DNA from: Fibrobacter sp.
GTDB taxonomy: Bacteria; Fibrobacterota; Chitinivibrionia; Chitinivibrionales; Chitinispirillaceae
Direction: 5' to 3'
NCBI GenBank assembly: GCA_012728995.1
Contig: JAAYEB010000022.1
Location: forward strand, 1 to 33,495
Length of the DNA stretch: 33,495 nucleotides
Position 1 is the first letter of the stretch. Each line of letters starts with the position of its first letter. Under the pieces are notes generated by a model. It was given only the letters and a program-made list of their open reading frames with translations, was not told the DNA's origin and did no database searches. Below are positions 23,656 through 33,367 of the stretch, one piece after another. The position numbers were made by a program, and so were the translations under genes.

Positions 23656-25155
23656 TTATGATGTCGTATTCAAATGATAAATATGTCTTCTGTCAATAAA
23701 GTTTTCAAAAATTTCTTCATTGTGGCTTATCATCAGCAGGGCGCTTCCGAGTGCCCGCTTCTCATCAAGGAGTGACAACACTTTTCTTACACTGTTGAAA
23801 TCAAGTCCGTTCAGTGGTTCATCAAGTATTATCAGGTCTGGAGTCAATATCAGGGTACGTAAAAGATTAAGACGCTGCTTCTGTCCGCCGCTTAAATATT
23901 TCACTTTCTTATTTATAAATTGTTTTGTAACAGGCGGGTCAAACAGTTCCAGAAGTTTGTTCTGCAATGTCTCGGTATTGATACGGATTTTTAAGGGGAG
24001 GCCTTTGAAAGTTTCTTTAACGGTTGATTCCAGATTAAGAGCTTCATCAGCATGCTGGAAAACCATACCTGCCCTTTTTCCCCAGATCTTGTTCTGCCAT
24101 ACTGAAGGGGAACTTCTCTGCGAGACTTTTAAACCACATAAAGACATTCTGAATTTATCTGCCTTGTATAAACCCATTATGATTTTGGCAAGAGTGGTTT
24201 TTCCGACTCCACTTGGTGCTTTAAGATAAACCATTTCGCCTTTGCGAATTATGAGGGGTGCTGGTTCAGACAATGATTCATCACTGAAAACAGATAACGA
24301 TTTGCCGAATATTTCAAAATGAGGGTTTACTTCAAGAACAGTATCATGTAATGATTTGTCTGCTTTATGATTTTTGGGAGCATTAAGCCAGCTTAAATAC
24401 TCTCTGGGTGAAAAATCATCAACTCTGACCTGTGTGTCACTTATACGCGACAGTTCCTTGAAATGGATATATCGGAGAAGATCTTTATGACTGCGATATA
24501 TCTCGCTTATAATTGAATAATCGTGGGTTATTATCTGTATTGTAAACGGACATGCCCTGAATTTGGAAAACAGGAGATTGATAAAAAGGTCTCTGTAATT
24601 GTTATCAAGACTTCCTGTGGGTTCGTCAAAGACAAAAAATGACGGTTCATCCGGATTATCCTTTTGTATCAGGGCATTAATCCTCTTGAATGCCATAGCA
24701 AGCAGTATTCTCTGTTTTTCACCGCCGCTTGGCCGGTAGGGTTTCGGAAAAATGTCAATAATCTTGCGCACAGATTCGTCACCTGAACTCTGCCAAAGAT
24801 AAGACAGTATCTCTCTGTCTTCAAGCCCCCCGAGACTCCCCTCATTAAGCTGATCCTTGATAGTCATTAAAGGGTTGAGATGGGATGAAGGTTCCTGGAA
24901 TACAAAAAAACTGTTTTTACGAACCTGTTTTGTCCAGTGATTATTGAGGTGTAAACCGTAAGGTTTATTATTAATAACAATTTCAAGCCCCTCCGGATCA
25001 AGTAAACCATAAACCGATTTGGACAAAACCGACTTGCCGATTCCTGATTCACCAAAAAGAAAGGTGATTTCATTCTGATATACAGGAAAAAAATCTGTGG
25101 AGACAATAGTCCGGTTATCAGATCTGACACTGATTGAAAAACTGTTCTCTTTCAT
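23656..25155 (-). CDS. fused double ATPase of a peptide-type ABC importer
   Basis: The product has 499 residues with two complete ABC domains. Domain 1 has Walker A GESGIGKS (35-42), Q-loop FQEP, signature SGGEK (143-147), Walker B with D177-E178, and H211. Domain 2 has Walker A APSGVGKT (313-320), Q367, signature LSGGQ (421-425), Walker B with D445-E446, and H478. Both look active. The layout matches fused OppDF-like proteins such as YejF and GsiA but is shorter than GsiA. The C-terminal oligopeptide-type extension usual after each domain is absent or minimal. The ATG overlaps the upstream permease stop by four bases. It powers import through the two permeases at 25152 and 26014. Confidence 0.92.
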   Translation of the reverse strand: MKENSFSISVRSDNRTIVSTDFFPVYQNEITFLFGESGIGKSVLSKSVYGLLDPEGLEIVINNKPYGLHLNNHWTKQVRKNSFFVFQEPSSHLNPLMTIKDQLNEGSLGGLEDREILSYLWQSSGDESVRKIIDIFPKPYRPSGGEKQRILLAMAFKRINALIQKDNPDEPSFFVFDEPTGSLDNNYRDLFINLLFSKFRACPFTIQIITHDYSIISEIYRSHKDLLRYIHFKELSRISDTQVRVDDFSPREYLSWLNAPKNHKADKSLHDTVLEVNPHFEIFGKSLSVFSDESLSEPAPLIIRKGEMVYLKAPSGVGKTTLAKIIMGLYKADKFRMSLCGLKVSQRSSPSVWQNKIWGKRAGMVFQHADEALNLESTVKETFKGLPLKIRINTETLQNKLLELFDPPVTKQFINKKVKYLSGGQKQRLNLLRTLILTPDLIILDEPLNGLDFNSVRKVLSLLDEKRALGSALLMISHNEEIFENFIDRRHIYHLNTTS

Positions 25156-26024
25156 AGACGGTGCCTTTCAGCATAACCGTTCGAAATACTGTAAATGCAA
25201 AAAAGGGAGAATACTATCAGGAATGCAACTGTCAGTCCCTGAAGATGCTGCATGAAAAGTTGAGGTAAATAACCCGGATTAAACAGCGTGTTTCCAATTG
25301 CAAGTATGTCCTGTTTGCTGTCCATTTTTGCAAGAAGGCTTCCAAGTGTTACAGGCATGCTTACTGTGTTGACCCCTGTAGACAAACCCACAGAAATAAT
25401 GAAATCTACACTGCACTGAAGAAAAACTGCGCTTCCAAAAACCGAAATAAGTTTGTTGAAAATATGAATACGACTGTTTTTCCAGAGTATATCAGAATTA
25501 ATGATCCGTTTTTCAGATATGCCGCACACTTTCATCGCATTGTAAAAATCAAGTTTTGTAAAATGACTGATCCGTTCTCGCATCAAATCAACCATCTCCA
25601 TAAAAATAAAAACACTCATACAGAACGCCATTAATACAAAAACGCCAGCCCCTCCAATCCATCCTCTGGTTATCAATGCAGCTATAATTACATAACTTAA
25701 AAGCACTCCGATTATCTGTGGAACTGATCGAACAAGATTTAAAATGAATGTCAGCACAATATAACCGCTTCGGATTTTTCTGTACTGAAAAAAGTGAAGT
25801 CCAAGGGTAAGCCCCCAGCTTAGTATCAGGGTAAAGATAACAACCAGCAGACAAATAATGATAGTGTTGATGAATCCGTTCGTTACTCTCAGAAGTGCAG
25901 GTTTGTTGAGAAACATTATATCCCATATACCAAGAACGGCAACACCAAGGACCCAGATCATGGCCCACCTGTGATCCTTGTTCAAGAATATTGAAAGTAA
26001 AAATGATCGCTTTTCAGTTTTCAT
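25152..26024 (-). CDS. ABC transporter permease (DppC/YejE-like)
   Basis: The product has 290 residues with about six membrane helices. The cytoplasmic EAA-type loop is seen in DFYNAMKVCGISEKRIINSD, where the ATPase would dock. The N-terminal cytoplasmic segment and first helix (WAMIWVLGVAVLGIWDIMFL) resemble DppC-type subunits, although overall similarity to the family is weak by eye. It overlaps the upstream permease by 11 bases and the downstream ATPase by four, showing tight translational coupling and a fixed stoichiometry. Confidence 0.85.
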   Translation of the reverse strand: MKTEKRSFLLSIFLNKDHRWAMIWVLGVAVLGIWDIMFLNKPALLRVTNGFINTIIICLLVVIFTLILSWGLTLGLHFFQYRKIRSGYIVLTFILNLVRSVPQIIGVLLSYVIIAALITRGWIGGAGVFVLMAFCMSVFIFMEMVDLMRERISHFTKLDFYNAMKVCGISEKRIINSDILWKNSRIHIFNKLISVFGSAVFLQCSVDFIISVGLSTGVNTVSMPVTLGSLLAKMDSKQDILAIGNTLFNPGYLPQLFMQHLQGLTVAFLIVFSLFCIYSISNGYAERHRL

Positions 26025-27114
26025 ATTTTAAAGATTCCCGATGCACAATGAAATCGGTAATGATTTCTGTAAATTTAACAGTATAGAAAATACCAAGAAC
26101 AATGGTTAATACAATATCATAATTTTTATACAGGAGCTGACGAAGCATTTCGTAATTGAGATATCCATGAATATTAAGAGCCATCTCTATTATTATAAGT
26201 CCTGTAATAAGAAATGATGCCTGTTCCTTGATAGTAGAGAGATACTGGTAATGAGCATTCCTGAAAATATGGTCGAAAATGTGACACTTGAACTGCTTTA
26301 CAGGACGTACTATCGATTTCCAGTCTATTGTACCGCATGGATTTCCATGACGGTCTTTTGGGAAGCTGTATCTGTATTCGAGATTTTTTACCAGGCCGGC
26401 TTCAACATATCCTTTTCTGCTTTCAGCAACCAGAAATGCATAAAATTTATTTGAATACATGACAAGCAATCCATTGGAAATTAAACCAAGGAGGATCATG
26501 AAAATTGAAGAATCGGTGTTGAATTCTGTCCTTATTGAGTATGCTATTACATAGGCAGGAGAAAAAAGAATCATGTATGCAATAACTTTAAAAAAAGAAC
26601 TTAGAAAACGGGAAATTTTCCTGGCAGGAACTTTCTGCGGATTCGCTTCATGCGCAAGCCTGTGTTCAAATAAACGCTTTTTGGATACAAATCTCCATAC
26701 TGCAATTGTTTGTACTCCGTAATATGTAAGCACCATTACGATAACGTAGATAACAAGGAATTTAAAATACATTCCTGCAAGGTCAAGCAATTTTGAAAGG
26801 GAGAGTTTTTCGTGAACATGGGAGCTCTGAAGTTTTTGGTTGAACTGATCCTCTCTTATACGGAATATCTCCCGCACTGTCTTTATGTTCTTGTCTTTGT
26901 GGCCAGGATAATAGATATCCATTACATTTTGAAGAAGCTGCTGTTGAAATGGGTCATTTACATTAGTTATTGGTACTCCACTCAGCAATTGTGCTTCTGA
27001 AGAAGCTGGAGAGCTGCTTTGAAGAGAATCGAAGTCGAAAAAGAAAATTACAGAAAGGAGGATAATGCTTACAAAAATCAGCCCCAGAATATGTTCAGTC
27101 AGTTTTGATTTCAT
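26014..27114 (-). CDS. ABC transporter permease (divergent DppB/YejB-like)
   Basis: The product has 366 residues. Helix 1 (about 10-27) is followed by a roughly 80-residue hydrophilic periplasmic segment, then helices near 113-133, 173-192, 202-222, 298-315 and 332-355. A loop including RKGYVEAGLVKNLEYRYSFP sits where the EAA motif of peptide permeases lies, and a further hydrophilic insertion (about 240-295) follows. Length and topology recall YejB, but residue identity to DppB is low, so the assignment leans on gene order. GGAG precedes the ATG by 6 bases. Confidence 0.7.
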   Translation of the reverse strand: MKSKLTEHILGLIFVSIILLSVIFFFDFDSLQSSSPASSEAQLLSGVPITNVNDPFQQQLLQNVMDIYYPGHKDKNIKTVREIFRIREDQFNQKLQSSHVHEKLSLSKLLDLAGMYFKFLVIYVIVMVLTYYGVQTIAVWRFVSKKRLFEHRLAHEANPQKVPARKISRFLSSFFKVIAYMILFSPAYVIAYSIRTEFNTDSSIFMILLGLISNGLLVMYSNKFYAFLVAESRKGYVEAGLVKNLEYRYSFPKDRHGNPCGTIDWKSIVRPVKQFKCHIFDHIFRNAHYQYLSTIKEQASFLITGLIIIEMALNIHGYLNYEMLRQLLYKNYDIVLTIVLGIFYTVKFTEIITDFIVHRESLKYEN

Positions 27115-27239
27115 ATTAACTCCGCATCACTTTTTCAAGAATATATTTCTAAAAAGCCTTCCTGCTCTTCGGTACGGGACATCCGTTAGGTAACTTTTCC
27201 TGAACTCGTTTGATTCCAGACATTTTTTCCCAGTGCATC

Positions 27240-28100
27240 TTAATCAGCATGAATTGTAATTTCACTGTTGTTATAATCCACTGTGAAAGGTTTTCCCAAC
27301 AGAATCTGCTTGATCTCCTGAACTACATACTGAGTACTCTTTTCGAGTTGATCAATAATTTCAACAGAACCGCTAAGTGTACACCTGATAACAGATTTAT
27401 CTTTCTCGATATTCCATTCCGGAATTGATTTTTGTTGTTTCGTGATTTCATTGAAATGGTTGAAAAAATCGCGATATGTTTCATTAACGGATTTTAAACG
27501 GGATTCAATTCTGTATACAATGTTGTTTTGGACCTGTGTGGCTTTTTGTGCTTTTTTCTTTTGTAAAAAAACAGTTGAAGGGCCACTGTACCATCCATAC
27601 TTTCCCTGTGCCTCAAGGCTGTAAAGATAATAACTGCCCTTGAATTTGAAAATCCGCTCTACTGACCCTGAATTTTTAATTGTAAAAGAGTTTCCCGATG
27701 AGGGGTGTTTTTCATATAAACGGATTGATTCTGATAAACCAGCCGTGTCATTGATAATTTCACAGTTTGAAAAGGTTTCCTGATAAGTTTGAGGGAGACC
27801 GACAAGATTACCTTTCTCATTTTTCTGGATATGCCATGTTTTCCCTCTGTAATTAAAGCGCAAGGCTTCAGTAATCTGGTCTCCAAGAGTCGTGTTTTTA
27901 TCAATAATTTGTAAAGGTGCGTATGGAATAAAAACCTGTTTTTTTTCCTTATCCGCAACAGTCTGTTCAAAATGATTCAGGATGCTGAGTTCATAAGGGC
28001 GGGACAGAATTAAAAAATCAGCCCGATCAGCTCCGCTTATTTGTGAAACGGATGCAGACAACAGAAACAAGAATGTAAAGGGTTTTGTAATTTTTATCAT
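27240..28100 (-). CDS. periplasmic protein of unknown function in the transporter operon
   Basis: The product has 286 residues. The N-terminus (MIKITKPFTFLFLLSASVSQ, then ISGADRAD) is a plausible Sec signal peptide cleaved near residue 24. The mature protein has a beta-rich first half, including FIPYAPLQII and LRFNYRGKTWHIQKNEKGN, which recalls small SH3-like barrels. The second half is helical and charged. I recognise no family. The ATG has no Shine-Dalgarno sequence; a strong stem-loop (28120-28152) precedes it. It lies between the solute-binding protein and the permeases, so a periplasmic helper of the importer is a reasonable guess. A 125-base gap with nothing notable separates it from the next gene. 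Confidence 0.65.
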   Translation of the reverse strand: MIKITKPFTFLFLLSASVSQISGADRADFLILSRPYELSILNHFEQTVADKEKKQVFIPYAPLQIIDKNTTLGDQITEALRFNYRGKTWHIQKNEKGNLVGLPQTYQETFSNCEIINDTAGLSESIRLYEKHPSSGNSFTIKNSGSVERIFKFKGSYYLYSLEAQGKYGWYSGPSTVFLQKKKAQKATQVQNNIVYRIESRLKSVNETYRDFFNHFNEITKQQKSIPEWNIEKDKSVIRCTLSGSVEIIDQLEKSTQYVVQEIKQILLGKPFTVDYNNSEITIHAD

Positions 28101-28119
28101 ATTGAGTAATATCAGTAAG

Positions 28120-28152
28120 CGATTCGTATGCCAGATGAAGGCATACGAATCG
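28120..28152 (-). repeat. perfect 13-base-pair intercistronic stem-loop
   Basis: CGATTCGTATGCC (28120-28132) and GGCATACGAATCG (28140-28152) pair perfectly around a 7-base loop. It begins 9 bases after the stop of the solute-binding protein gene. No U-tract follows, so it is more likely an mRNA 3' stabiliser or processing site than a terminator. Such structures often raise the level of the binding protein relative to the permeases in ABC operons. Confidence 0.75.
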
Positions 28153-28161
28153 GTATGTAAT

Positions 28162-29898
28162 CTATTTCCTGACAGTTTCCTGCCATTTTTCGATTGTAGA
28201 CAATTGAGATGCAGTTCCGTACAGGTCTATACTGTTATCAGCAAACTGGGTACTAAAATAGGCCAGTGACGGAAGAGAGAAGAGCCAGCTGCCAAGAGCA
28301 ATTTTCTGATCAAGCTGATCAATATACTGGGCGTAAACTTGTTTGTCGCCAATTTCATGAGTCGACATGAAACCATATATATACTCCAGAAGTTGAGCAA
28401 AATCCTCTTTTTCGGGAGAACTGGCAAGATCAATGCGGAAGAAATTCTTGTCTTCCACAAACGACTGTTCATCAATAGTTTGTTCACCCGACTGGTTGAT
28501 TGCAGTTTTCAGATTGATTTTGTTGGCACTGAAATCCGGTTCACGGAGGAAAATGTTGTACAGGTCAAATAGAAAATTAGATCTGTAACCACTTACCGGA
28601 ACAAGTACTGCATCATAGTTGCCTCTGCGGATATCTTCGTTTTGTACTGCACTGACCTTGATTTTCCCGCCAAACAGAGCCGGGTCATTCATGATTTCAG
28701 CCAGTTCCGAAAGCTCTTCACGAAAACCAAAATTCAAGCATGTATGGATATGTACAGTGTCCGGAAGAACTGATATGTCAACAGGTTCGACTTCGATTTC
28801 TCCGGGTACTACAATATCCTCTTCAATGTAGTAGGATGTTGTAGGAAATATGCTGTTATTGAGATATTCATCATAGTTGTTACCGGTTCCCTTATAATTG
28901 GCAATATGACGCTGCTGTTCTGTTCCGATCCTGAAAAAACGGTCCATTATCTTCTTGTTATCTATCAATTGGCGTAATGCATGTCGCTGTTCAGGAGACA
29001 ATCTGGATACATTGTAAAACAGTGCAAAAAAACTGGTGCTGATACTGGATTTGTAGAAATACTTTGTTGAATCGCCAAGAATCGGGGAGATTGCTCCAAA
29101 TGGCGAGCTTAAAAGTGAATTGATATTGCGGTTTTTCAATTCAGTAGCATAGGTACTGTTATCAATATAAGGTTTCAGGACAACATTCGTTAATGATGCA
29201 CTGCCATCCGGCGGCTTGTGATAAATTATCTTTTCTTCAAATTCTGTTGCATGAAGATAGGGGCCGGTTCCATTGCTGTAAACAGGCGCATCTATGTCGG
29301 AATCGGAAGGAAGAACCTTGAAAGAAAGCACTTCCTTTATATCACTTTCTGTCCAGATACGGTCGCCCCTGAACTGAAAATGTATTTCCCCGTTTTCATC
29401 TGGACCACTGAAATCAAAATCGGGAATAGCCTGCGATACAAGAATATAATCGGGTGACATACTGCCAAGTTTCTGAATTCTTCTCAGGGTAAACCTGAGA
29501 TCCTGTGCGGTGAAAAGAATCTCCTGTGCTTCTTCAACAGTAATTTTTTTCTTCTCTGTTGTTACAGAATAACTTGTATGCCATTTTTTGCGCGGTTTAA
29601 GTCGAACAGAAACAACGCCGGTCTTCTCATCAAGACCCATGAATTCCCCCAGGCCGTCTTCATAAACTATGCCGCTGGGGTTTGCTGAAATGTTAAAAAG
29701 GCCATCAAAAAGCACCTCGTCAAGCTTGTCCGCAATTGGGACTGAACTTGGAATATGCGGATCAATACGTGGTTTCTGATGTGCAATGTAGGGAAGTACA
29801 ATCTGATCTGCCAGATTTTTACGGAATACAAAGAAATAGACCAGCGCAGATGCAATCGCAACTAATGCTATACTTACAATTAAAATGGTTTTTTTCAT
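28162..29898 (-). CDS. extracellular solute-binding protein, family 5 (peptide/oligosaccharide type)
   Basis: The product has 578 residues. A hydrophobic N-terminal helix (about 4-25, VSIALVAIASALVYFFVF) has no clear cleavage site or lipobox, so the protein may stay anchored to the inner membrane. Features of the DppA/OppA fold include DEVLFDGLFNI, DLRFTLRRIQKLG, YSNGTGPYLHA and SFFALFYNVSRLSPEQRHALR. It should bind the ligand and deliver it to the permeases. Family 5 proteins bind peptides, nickel, opines or oligosaccharides; the ligand here is unknown. AGGAG lies 8 bases before the ATG. It follows the lipoprotein gene by 26 bases. Confidence 0.85.
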   Translation of the reverse strand: MKKTILIVSIALVAIASALVYFFVFRKNLADQIVLPYIAHQKPRIDPHIPSSVPIADKLDEVLFDGLFNISANPSGIVYEDGLGEFMGLDEKTGVVSVRLKPRKKWHTSYSVTTEKKKITVEEAQEILFTAQDLRFTLRRIQKLGSMSPDYILVSQAIPDFDFSGPDENGEIHFQFRGDRIWTESDIKEVLSFKVLPSDSDIDAPVYSNGTGPYLHATEFEEKIIYHKPPDGSASLTNVVLKPYIDNSTYATELKNRNINSLLSSPFGAISPILGDSTKYFYKSSISTSFFALFYNVSRLSPEQRHALRQLIDNKKIMDRFFRIGTEQQRHIANYKGTGNNYDEYLNNSIFPTTSYYIEEDIVVPGEIEVEPVDISVLPDTVHIHTCLNFGFREELSELAEIMNDPALFGGKIKVSAVQNEDIRRGNYDAVLVPVSGYRSNFLFDLYNIFLREPDFSANKINLKTAINQSGEQTIDEQSFVEDKNFFRIDLASSPEKEDFAQLLEYIYGFMSTHEIGDKQVYAQYIDQLDQKIALGSWLFSLPSLAYFSTQFADNSIDLYGTASQLSTIEKWQETVRK

Positions 29899-29924
29899 AT
29901 GAAAGCTCCTCAGTTGTTAACAGA

Positions 29925-32300
29925 TCAGTTTTTCTTTATAATAGGTTTTTGCACCATGATACTTACAGGATGCACTTTGTAGGTATTGTGCGTGAATGTT
30001 ATCTCAAGAATGTTTGCCTTTTCCTTTTTCATCTGAACCGGTGATATCTGGCATTCATAATCATTTGATGCGCTCGGGGCTGTAATGGTAAACCTGCCCT
30101 CATTCTTGAGCGGTACCTTATTCAATGTCATCGATTCATACCACTGCTTCGAACCGGCATTATCTGCAATCTCCTTGGGGAGTTTGATATTTACGTCAAA
30201 TACCGGAAACTTGGCATCAGTTGGAATATCAATGTACATGCGGACTACGTATTTGTTATTTACCCGTCTGTCGGTAACCGGTAATGCAAAAACCCTGCGA
30301 TACTGTTTCGGTTTTACTATCCATTTTGCAGTCAAGGGGTCACATTCAGCAATACTGAGCTTGACCTTCTTGTCTTCACCTTTGTAGTATTTCCCATGGG
30401 CAACAACGGCGCGTGCTTTCAGAACGCCATCCTTGTTCGGATTTGATGTAAATTGTTTGTAAAGGAGTGTTATCGCTTTTGCCGGGAATTCATTCTCTTT
30501 CATTTTTGCGAGATGCTCAATCAGTTCGGTTTTCCGTTTCAGCAGATCATTTCTTGAGCCGGTTGCAAAAGTTACATTGTAAACCGGGAGGAATACAGAA
30601 TCAGCATAAAGCGAATCAACATTCTCCAGTACCCCAATGTTATCTTCAAGAAACTTAACAATACGTCGTCGCGAAACCCTGTCGATTTTTGTGTAAAGAG
30701 AGTCCTCAAGGTCACCAACAACTTTTGCCTTGACGGGATAGATCTCTTCAGGGTTAAGAAAATGGGTGTCTTCATAAAGCTTCCGTAAACCTTCTTCAGC
30801 TTTTGGCCAGTTTCTGTCATTAAGTGAAATCTCAATCTGGTTAGCCTGTTCATCAACCGACATCTTGTCGAGTGGTTTGTATTTGGGAATTAAAAAGTCT
30901 AGATGCATTTTTTGTGTCAGGTGTCCAAGCATTCCGCTGAAATCTCTCTGTTCCTTGAGTGAATTAAGCAAGGGGACCAGTGATGATGCTTCCTGAAAAT
31001 GTTCTGCCTTTGTGTTAAAAGTTTCAGTAAACCCGGTTATTGCGCTGTTAAGTTTTTCTTTGCAACTGTATTCATTGAATTTTCCGTAAGATTCATCAAG
31101 TGGTTTGACAAGATTTGTTTTTATTGCAGAAACTTTTTTGACAACTCCGGCAAAAAATTTGTCATCCGGCATGTCTCCAAGTTTTTCTATCGATTCATTA
31201 ATCTTTGCAAGAGAATCGCTGGCAGATTGGAGACCTCTGGCCCTGGTATCAAAATCTTTAACAAATTTGGATAATACCGTATATTCCTGGGGTGCAGCCA
31301 GACCTGCATCATTGTAAAGTGTAGCGACCCTGTAAAGTGATGAAGTCATGAAACTTTTTTCATCAAACGGAGCAGCATCATCTTTTTCTGTCAGTTTTTG
31401 TTCATAAAAAGGAACAACATCTTTCAACCGTTCATTTATGACATTCTGCGCTTCTGATACAACAGGGCTGGGTAAAGAGTCTTTTTTGGAAAAGAATTCG
31501 ATAAACAGATCAACCGATTCCATAAGAAGTCCGGGATTCCCGTCACACTGCGATTCTTTTCCGAAAAAATTCAGTACAAGGAGATAATTCTTTTGAAAAG
31601 TCATCTCTTCTTCAATTGATGATTTCAATGTCAGGTAGTTTTGATATGCTTCATCTTTGGAATTAAGGATGCTTGGTGGAAAGATTGATTCAATTGCAAG
31701 AAGCTCATTGTAGACATTTTCCAGTTCGCCATAATGATCTTTTACAAACTTGACCATTTTGGGGAAATTTGTTCCCTGAAGATGTTTTCCGGGGCCAATA
31801 GAATTATATGCTTCACGGTCAACACGGTTGTTTTCAAGAATTTCCTTGAATGATGCATGTTTGTTTTCAAATTTGAATCGCCATTGAGGGACATATCTAT
31901 AATCAACATTAAAAATCACGTCCTCAGGTATGGACTCAATTATCAGATAATAGCCGCTTCCGTTATTTTCAATCGGGTATACACTCATTGTGTCGCAAGT
32001 CGATTCGTCGGTGATCTTTTCTCCAGGCCGTTTTTTGTCTGTCAGTTGGGAGGTTAAAAAACTGGAGAAGCTTTTTTTGGCAGGTATACTTAATACCAGA
32101 TAATAGTTTTTGTCTTCAGCTGATGGAAACTGGATAAAATAACGTTTTTCCTTTTTCAGCTCAAAATCTTTTTTCCCGTCTTTAAGCTCGATATAGCCTT
32201 TTTCTGCAGAGGAAAGCTCCGGTTTAGGCTGGAGCTGTTTGTAAGCTGAACATCCAATAAAAAATAGAAACGCCAGAACTGAGATGAACCTTAATCTCAT
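29925..32300 (-). CDS. large lipoprotein of unknown function, first gene of the transporter operon
   Basis: The product has 791 residues. The signal peptide MRLRFISVLAFLFFIGCSAY carries a lipobox (FIGC, Cys17); Ser at +2 suggests outer-membrane sorting if E. coli rules apply. The first 135 mature residues look beta-rich (ELKKEKRYFIQFPSAED, YYLIIESIPEDVIF). A long helical middle (about 150-570) is rich in Lys, Glu, Leu and Phe, and the last 180 residues are again beta-rich (KAKIVVAH-like strands, VVRMYIDIPTDAKFPVFDVN). I recognise no enzyme motif or family. The GGGGG ribosome site is 8 bases from the ATG. Its position ahead of the binding protein suggests a role in capturing or passing the substrate, or in envelope assembly of the system. 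Confidence 0.7.
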   Translation of the reverse strand: MRLRFISVLAFLFFIGCSAYKQLQPKPELSSAEKGYIELKDGKKDFELKKEKRYFIQFPSAEDKNYYLVLSIPAKKSFSSFLTSQLTDKKRPGEKITDESTCDTMSVYPIENNGSGYYLIIESIPEDVIFNVDYRYVPQWRFKFENKHASFKEILENNRVDREAYNSIGPGKHLQGTNFPKMVKFVKDHYGELENVYNELLAIESIFPPSILNSKDEAYQNYLTLKSSIEEEMTFQKNYLLVLNFFGKESQCDGNPGLLMESVDLFIEFFSKKDSLPSPVVSEAQNVINERLKDVVPFYEQKLTEKDDAAPFDEKSFMTSSLYRVATLYNDAGLAAPQEYTVLSKFVKDFDTRARGLQSASDSLAKINESIEKLGDMPDDKFFAGVVKKVSAIKTNLVKPLDESYGKFNEYSCKEKLNSAITGFTETFNTKAEHFQEASSLVPLLNSLKEQRDFSGMLGHLTQKMHLDFLIPKYKPLDKMSVDEQANQIEISLNDRNWPKAEEGLRKLYEDTHFLNPEEIYPVKAKVVGDLEDSLYTKIDRVSRRRIVKFLEDNIGVLENVDSLYADSVFLPVYNVTFATGSRNDLLKRKTELIEHLAKMKENEFPAKAITLLYKQFTSNPNKDGVLKARAVVAHGKYYKGEDKKVKLSIAECDPLTAKWIVKPKQYRRVFALPVTDRRVNNKYVVRMYIDIPTDAKFPVFDVNIKLPKEIADNAGSKQWYESMTLNKVPLKNEGRFTITAPSASNDYECQISPVQMKKEKANILEITFTHNTYKVHPVSIMVQKPIIKKN

Positions 32301-32452: not shown

Positions 32453-33367
32453 TCAATTGTAATCCCGAAGAACTTTTCTAAGCAAAAGTCCCGATTCGCT
32501 TAAATCGGATAGTTGCCAGTTACCTTTTCTATCTGCACCAGGTTTCAGGGCAGCAGAGGTTTCAGGCATATCTGAAATCGACCAGTTACACCAGCTTAAA
32601 CTGTTTTTGTCCATAAAGGACAACCACTCTGCGGTTTCGTTCTTGTCCAGATACCCATCGCCGTTTGCTTCGCATGCCCCCCATTCAGTAACAAACAGGG
32701 CAAAGTTTTTATCAAGTGCTTTTTGAGCTTTTTGGCGAAGCCACTCCTTGTGGCTTGATGCGTAAAAATGGAGTGTGTAAGCGGTGTTGAAATCATTAAG
32801 CGGATCCTGTACGGCAATGTCAACGTCCTGAGACCATCGGGGAGTGCCGGCGACTATAAGGTTTGATGATCCCGACGAACGGATCGTTTCGGTTATCTCT
32901 TGGGCATACGGTTTGATCTCTGTTGACCAGTCCTGTTTTATTGGTTCATTGAAAATTTCATAGATGATATTTGGCATATCGTAATAACTGGATGATATTT
33001 CCTTAAAGAATTTCTTTGCAGCACCAGGATGATTCTGTGCATTATGATCGTGCCAGTCTACAATAATATATATGCCCAGCTTTTGGGCAGCTTCAATTGC
33101 GGTCCTGACTTTTTTTGTTTCGGTATCAGGGTTTAGAAGATATCCGCCATTTTCGACTGCCATTGCAAGCCGGATAACAGAGATGTTCCAGTCTTTAACA
33201 AGCCATCCTATAACATCTTCATTCCAGTATTTCCCTTTCCACTGGCTCCAGTACAAAGACATTCCCCTGATCTGTACAATTTTGCCTGAGCTGTCTACGA
33301 TACGGTTACCGTTTACCTGAAGTTTTCCGTGTTTTGAGACCGGGGATAATCCGGATAAATTATTCAT
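32453..33367 (-). CDS. GH5 family endoglucanase-like glycoside hydrolase, no signal peptide
   Basis: The product has 304 residues, a bare GH5 (subfamily 2-like) (beta/alpha)8 domain. Key features are RGMSLYWSQW near the N-terminus, WHDH (105-108), the acid/base E141 in IYEIFNEP, HFY (200-202), and the nucleophile E228 in FVTEWGA. Relatives cut beta-1,4-glucans. The start is firm: TAA lies directly before the ATG in frame, and AGGAG is 7 bases upstream. The N-terminus (MNNLSGLSPVSKHGKLQVNG) has no signal peptide or lipobox and there is no carbohydrate-binding module. It therefore probably acts in the cytoplasm or leaves by another route. It lies on the same strand just before the ABC importer operon. 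Confidence 0.9.
   Translation of the reverse strand: MNNLSGLSPVSKHGKLQVNGNRIVDSSGKIVQIRGMSLYWSQWKGKYWNEDVIGWLVKDWNISVIRLAMAVENGGYLLNPDTETKKVRTAIEAAQKLGIYIIVDWHDHNAQNHPGAAKKFFKEISSSYYDMPNIIYEIFNEPIKQDWSTEIKPYAQEITETIRSSGSSNLIVAGTPRWSQDVDIAVQDPLNDFNTAYTLHFYASSHKEWLRQKAQKALDKNFALFVTEWGACEANGDGYLDKNETAEWLSFMDKNSLSWCNWSISDMPETSAALKPGADRKGNWQLSDLSESGLLLRKVLRDYN

Follow-up and report, generated by a model that had tools for sequence, protein, structure and literature searches.

The closest known relatives of the system analysed here are peptide importers of the Opp/Dpp/Yej family. YejABEF, the peptide and microcin C importer of Escherichia coli, consists of a binding protein, an OppB-type and an OppC-type permease and a fused double ATPase, encoded by yejA-B-E-F only. 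OppABCDF and DppABCDF combine a family-5 binding protein with a permease pair, the B subunit of which has a long loop, and with two intact ATPase domains; these ATPases are separate proteins with C-terminal [4Fe-4S] domains (PMC12136057). Residue D436 of DppA holds the amino group of the dipeptide, and the scoop motif of DppB sits in the TM1–TM2 loop and enters the cleft of the binding protein (PMC12136057). Neither OppABCDF nor DppABCDF has a lipoprotein partner or an SH3b-like partner, unlike the system reported here, no description of which was found in the literature searched.

The window, that is, the whole stretch of 33 495 nucleotides of Fibrobacter sp. that was analysed, carries a six-gene unit at positions 23656–32300. 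An earlier note on this sequence had described six genes in one direction, and all the open reading frames were found at the place given there, on the minus strand. In order of transcription, they are:

29925–32300, minus strand: LP791, a lipoprotein of 791 residues, first gene (open reading frame; invariant lipobox Cys17; AlphaFold model)
28162–29898, minus strand: SBP, a family-5 (Opp/Dpp/Yej type) binding protein of 578 residues with an N-terminal membrane anchor (SBP_bac_5, profile match, one transmembrane segment)
27240–28100, minus strand: P286, an exported protein of 286 residues (AlphaFold model; SH3b arrays in Foldseek)
26014–27114, minus strand: permA, an OppB/YejB-type permease of 366 residues (profile comparison, topology)
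25152–26024, minus strand: permB, an OppC/YejE-type permease of 290 residues (BPD_transp_1, profile comparison, topology)
23656–25155, minus strand: a fused double ABC ATPase of 499 residues (two ABC_tran domains, both sites intact, no oligo_HPY region)

The same note had the three downstream genes overlapping. This holds for permA, permB and the ATPase gene, in which neighbours share 11 and 4 bases; the P286 gene does not take part, a 125-base gap separating it from permA. A promoter scan gave results at chance level, and a terminator scan gave results slightly above chance level, no more. The downstream neighbours are a polysaccharide flippase and a glycosyltransferase (Pfam), and the flanking genes vary among the loci of relatives and are not conserved. 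Upstream lies a gene for a GH5 endoglucanase (32453–33367, minus strand), which matches Pfam Cellulase at 3.5e-59; from the start as called, it has no obvious signal peptide, and relatives do not share this neighbour.

The pump is recognizable at the level of profiles. Pfam finds two ABC_tran domains in the ATPase, and the Walker A, signature, Walker B and H-loop motifs, already reported as intact, are indeed so in both domains and invariant in relatives, so that both domains are predicted to be competent. BPD_transp_1 is matched above the cut-off by permB (8e-7) and weakly by permA. In profile–profile comparisons (hhalign), permA is closer to the OppB type (E 1.1e-5, versus 0.054 for the OppC type) and permB to the OppC type (E 5.9e-6, versus 0.002 for the OppB type), giving one permease of each type. 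In topology, permA has the long periplasmic TM1–TM2 loop of OppB, DppB and YejB. It differs from the known permeases in the EAA (coupling) region, where it carries an insertion, and permB differs in its short TM1–TM2 loop, without the long TM1–TM2 segment of OppC.

SBP falls just below the Pfam cut-off for SBP_bac_5 (30.6 bits, cut-off 32.4; E 2.5e-7). Its profile aligns with that of eight E. coli family-5 binding proteins at E 9e-13 over 371 columns (hhalign), so that it belongs to family 5 on profile comparison and keeps both lobes. The Opp/Yej-type assignment proposed earlier thus stands for SBP and both permeases, and the putative importer is, on these comparisons, a divergent relative of the Opp/Dpp/Yej systems. 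It shares with YejABEF the same four kinds of component in the same order. It differs from YejABEF in its very distant sequences, in the membrane anchor of SBP, in the two exported partners added in essentially all relatives, and in the ATPase. The C-terminal oligo_HPY region (PF08352) was not found on the window ATPase among the best 25 of 29 Pfam families, down to E 0.056, whereas YejF, OppD, OppF and GsiA in the comparison set match it at 2e-8 or better. Unlike the ATPases of OppABCDF and DppABCDF, that of the window is fused.

SBP has a single N-terminal transmembrane segment (residues 5–23) and no evident cleavage site. The position equivalent to D436 of DppA, in the GW..DY.DP region, is a gap in the profile alignment, and a conserved SGYRSNFLFDLY is found there instead; SBP therefore lacks the aspartate with which OppA, DppA and MppA hold the alpha-amino group. 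The usual pattern is also absent from NikA and GsiB. The cargo of these two proteins is non-standard, a nickel chelate and glutathione, respectively, which makes a special substrate for SBP a reasonable inference. This substrate would be small and not an ordinary peptide with a free amino end; a blocked peptide, or one derived from the cell wall, would be an example.

The two exported partners had been said to match nothing known, and they remain unrecognized by every sequence library tried: neither LP791 nor P286 has a credible match by sequence in Pfam, NCBIfam or the PDB. Weak Pfam matches of the two proteins (Abi_2, phiKZ_IP, COG2_N) were inconsistent among members and set aside. Structure prediction, as recommended in the earlier note, yielded models for both proteins. 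That of LP791 (pLDDT 90, pTM 0.55) has a beta-sandwich at about 37–138, a body of long helices at 139–653 (about 515 residues) and a C-terminal beta-sandwich at 659–783. The C-terminal quarter, which ends in QKPIIKKN, is the most conserved part of the protein. PDB fold matches to BIRC6 and other helical proteins, with a query TM of at most 0.17, were discarded, and the PliG and CpE C-terminal matches concern at most one beta-sandwich domain. No Asp occurs among the captured +2 residues following the lipobox cysteine in LP791 relatives; read by the rule for E. coli, this position gives no more than a hint of a location in the outer membrane.

In the model of P286 (pLDDT 91), a beta-rich part that would fit two barrels, predicted as SH3b-like domains at about 25–180, is followed by a long helix (183–220) and an alpha/beta tail. 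The best PDB matches in Foldseek are SH3b arrays that bind the cell wall, namely YrvJ, CBDP35 and the teichoic-acid-binding domain of SlpA; the scores are weak (E 0.003–0.013, with a whole-chain TM of about 0.2). By this fold search, P286 may resemble them in its tandem barrels. P286 differs from these arrays in having no sequence match to them, an extra long helix with the alpha/beta tail, and no enzyme domain. No SH3 family of Pfam was matched by any of 44 P286 members, and a viral fold search with P286 gave nothing firm.

Relatives were recruited by one scan of genome contigs for which a single sequence, permB, served as the query; distant phyla may therefore be under-sampled. The scan found loci in Chitinispirillaceae, other Fibrobacterota, Calditrichota and Melioribacteraceae, with all six genes in order at seven of nine scanned loci; the remaining two are contig fragments. 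Among 168 genomes of Fibrobacterota, SBP, LP791 and permB are each present in 20 and P286 in 19. The carriers are the same genomes for all four proteins, except for two fragmented assemblies: G032 is without P286 and permB, and G003 has permB, permA and the ATPase, with LP791, SBP and P286 absent. In Calditrichota, SBP occurs in 29 of 40 genomes, and permB in 26 of these 29 carriers versus 1 of the 11 non-carriers. SBP is rarer around the Melioribacteraceae member, being found in 18 of 245 genomes of its class and in 11 of 296 drawn evenly across its phylum.

Among the fetched loci, 38 besides that of the window have the same six-gene order on one strand, in Fibrobacterota, Calditrichota and Ignavibacteria-type lineages, and the LP791 and SBP genes lie side by side at every one of the 56 loci with both genes. 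The co-occurrence of both partners with the permease/ATPase set, which the earlier note had proposed as a test, is thus almost without exception. Homologues of the partners do not occur mostly without the transporter, and in the libraries tried they match no well-described family with an unrelated role. One operon, in genome G376 (locus L147, 6770–14120), keeps the other five genes and has no detectable P286 gene nearby; it is the only clear natural loss of this gene seen.

The strongest evidence that both partners work with the pump comes from genomes in which the operon is broken up. G177 (a single contig of 4.98 Mb) and its relatives, including G178, carry the genes at two separate sites, LP791-SBP and P286-permA-permB-ATPase. 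In G002, they lie at three sites (L063, L067 and L208), as LP791-SBP, P286 alone and permA-permB-ATPase. Unrelated genes have been inserted inside the operon in G030, G031 and others; at loci L060 and L062, such genes stand in the SBP–P286 and permA–permB intervals, and all six genes are kept. In every split or interrupted case, the six genes are all retained. The grouping of the genes in the split genomes suggests that LP791 is paired with SBP and P286 with the permease. Together with the co-occurrence across phyla, the split operons rule out a chance co-location of the six genes.

We consider the system to be probably an importer dedicated to one specific substrate, with LP791 acting together with SBP, and P286 together with the permease. 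The six components would form one type I ABC importer that has its origin in the Opp/Dpp/Yej family, with the two permeases and the fused ATPase as its pump. SBP, tethered to the inner membrane, would deliver the substrate. The rod-like LP791, most likely in the outer membrane, would capture the substrate or hand it over together with SBP, and P286 most likely uses its SH3b-like domains to bind peptidoglycan or the cell wall and may hold or gate the permease side. On this best reading, the importer is possibly envelope-spanning and its substrate probably unusual. A more specific version, in which the LP791 rod spans the periplasm and hands the substrate directly to the tethered SBP, P286 staples the permease to peptidoglycan and no freely diffusing binding protein is needed, is speculative and, as a whole, rather unlikely. 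What counts against a dedicated importer is the weakness of the SH3b matches of P286, which are invisible by sequence, the G376 operon that lacks P286, and a conservation of SBP far above that expected of a nutrient-binding protein, such that SBP could be mainly a structural part.

A different view of the ABC module is that it has ceased to import a nutrient and serves instead as motor or sensor in an envelope machine for envelope assembly, cell-wall remodelling or signalling; ATP hydrolysis would then drive a conformational change, passed through the SBP-like subunit to LP791 and P286. Across phyla, the tethered SBP equals RpoB in conservation (Fibrobacterota against Calditrichota, 59.5% identity, versus 56.1% for RpoB in the same genomes), and it lacks the peptide-binding aspartate; the ATPase has no oligo_HPY region, and an SH3b-like P286 and a long helical LP791 would suit such a machine. 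Within phyla, RpoB is the more conserved. In a tree of SBP and LP791, the Fibrobacterota form one clade (support 100) nested in Calditrichota, with their loci L051–L068 placed among L116–L135, beside one Ignavibacteria-type group. This tree disfavours frequent recent spread between phyla as the cause of the high conservation. A single ancient transfer of the entire set between phyla, with vertical inheritance and loss afterwards, fits better, and would explain both the nested tree and the high identity of SBP across phyla, so that part of this conservation no longer speaks for a machine. Moreover, the OppB/OppC topology persists in the permeases, as do EAA-like motifs and the long periplasmic loop, SBP keeps both its lobes, and an essential envelope machine would hardly be so patchily distributed (20 of 168 genomes). 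We regard this alternative as doubtful.

In their pairwise distances, all six families still correlate with one another once the RpoB signal is removed (partial correlations 0.40–0.84, n = 15 genomes). The pump parts are recognizable Opp relatives, as they would be in an ordinary Opp/Yej oligopeptide importer with which LP791 and P286 merely co-travel in a minor or unrelated role. Such a system would hardly be expected to retain the two proteins where the operon is split or interrupted, or across phyla amid unrelated flanks. The conserved C-terminal domain of LP791 and the lost amino-end aspartate of SBP argue in the same direction, and we find this explanation very improbable.

With the putative importer, a well-studied class of importers gains two undescribed protein families, those of LP791 and P286, which are near-obligatory parts of the system across several poorly studied phyla. 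If it is true that LP791 couples the outer membrane to SBP, this would represent a new arrangement of ABC uptake among diderm bacteria. All the parts are held in a defined six-gene set, often one operon, which makes the proposal directly testable.
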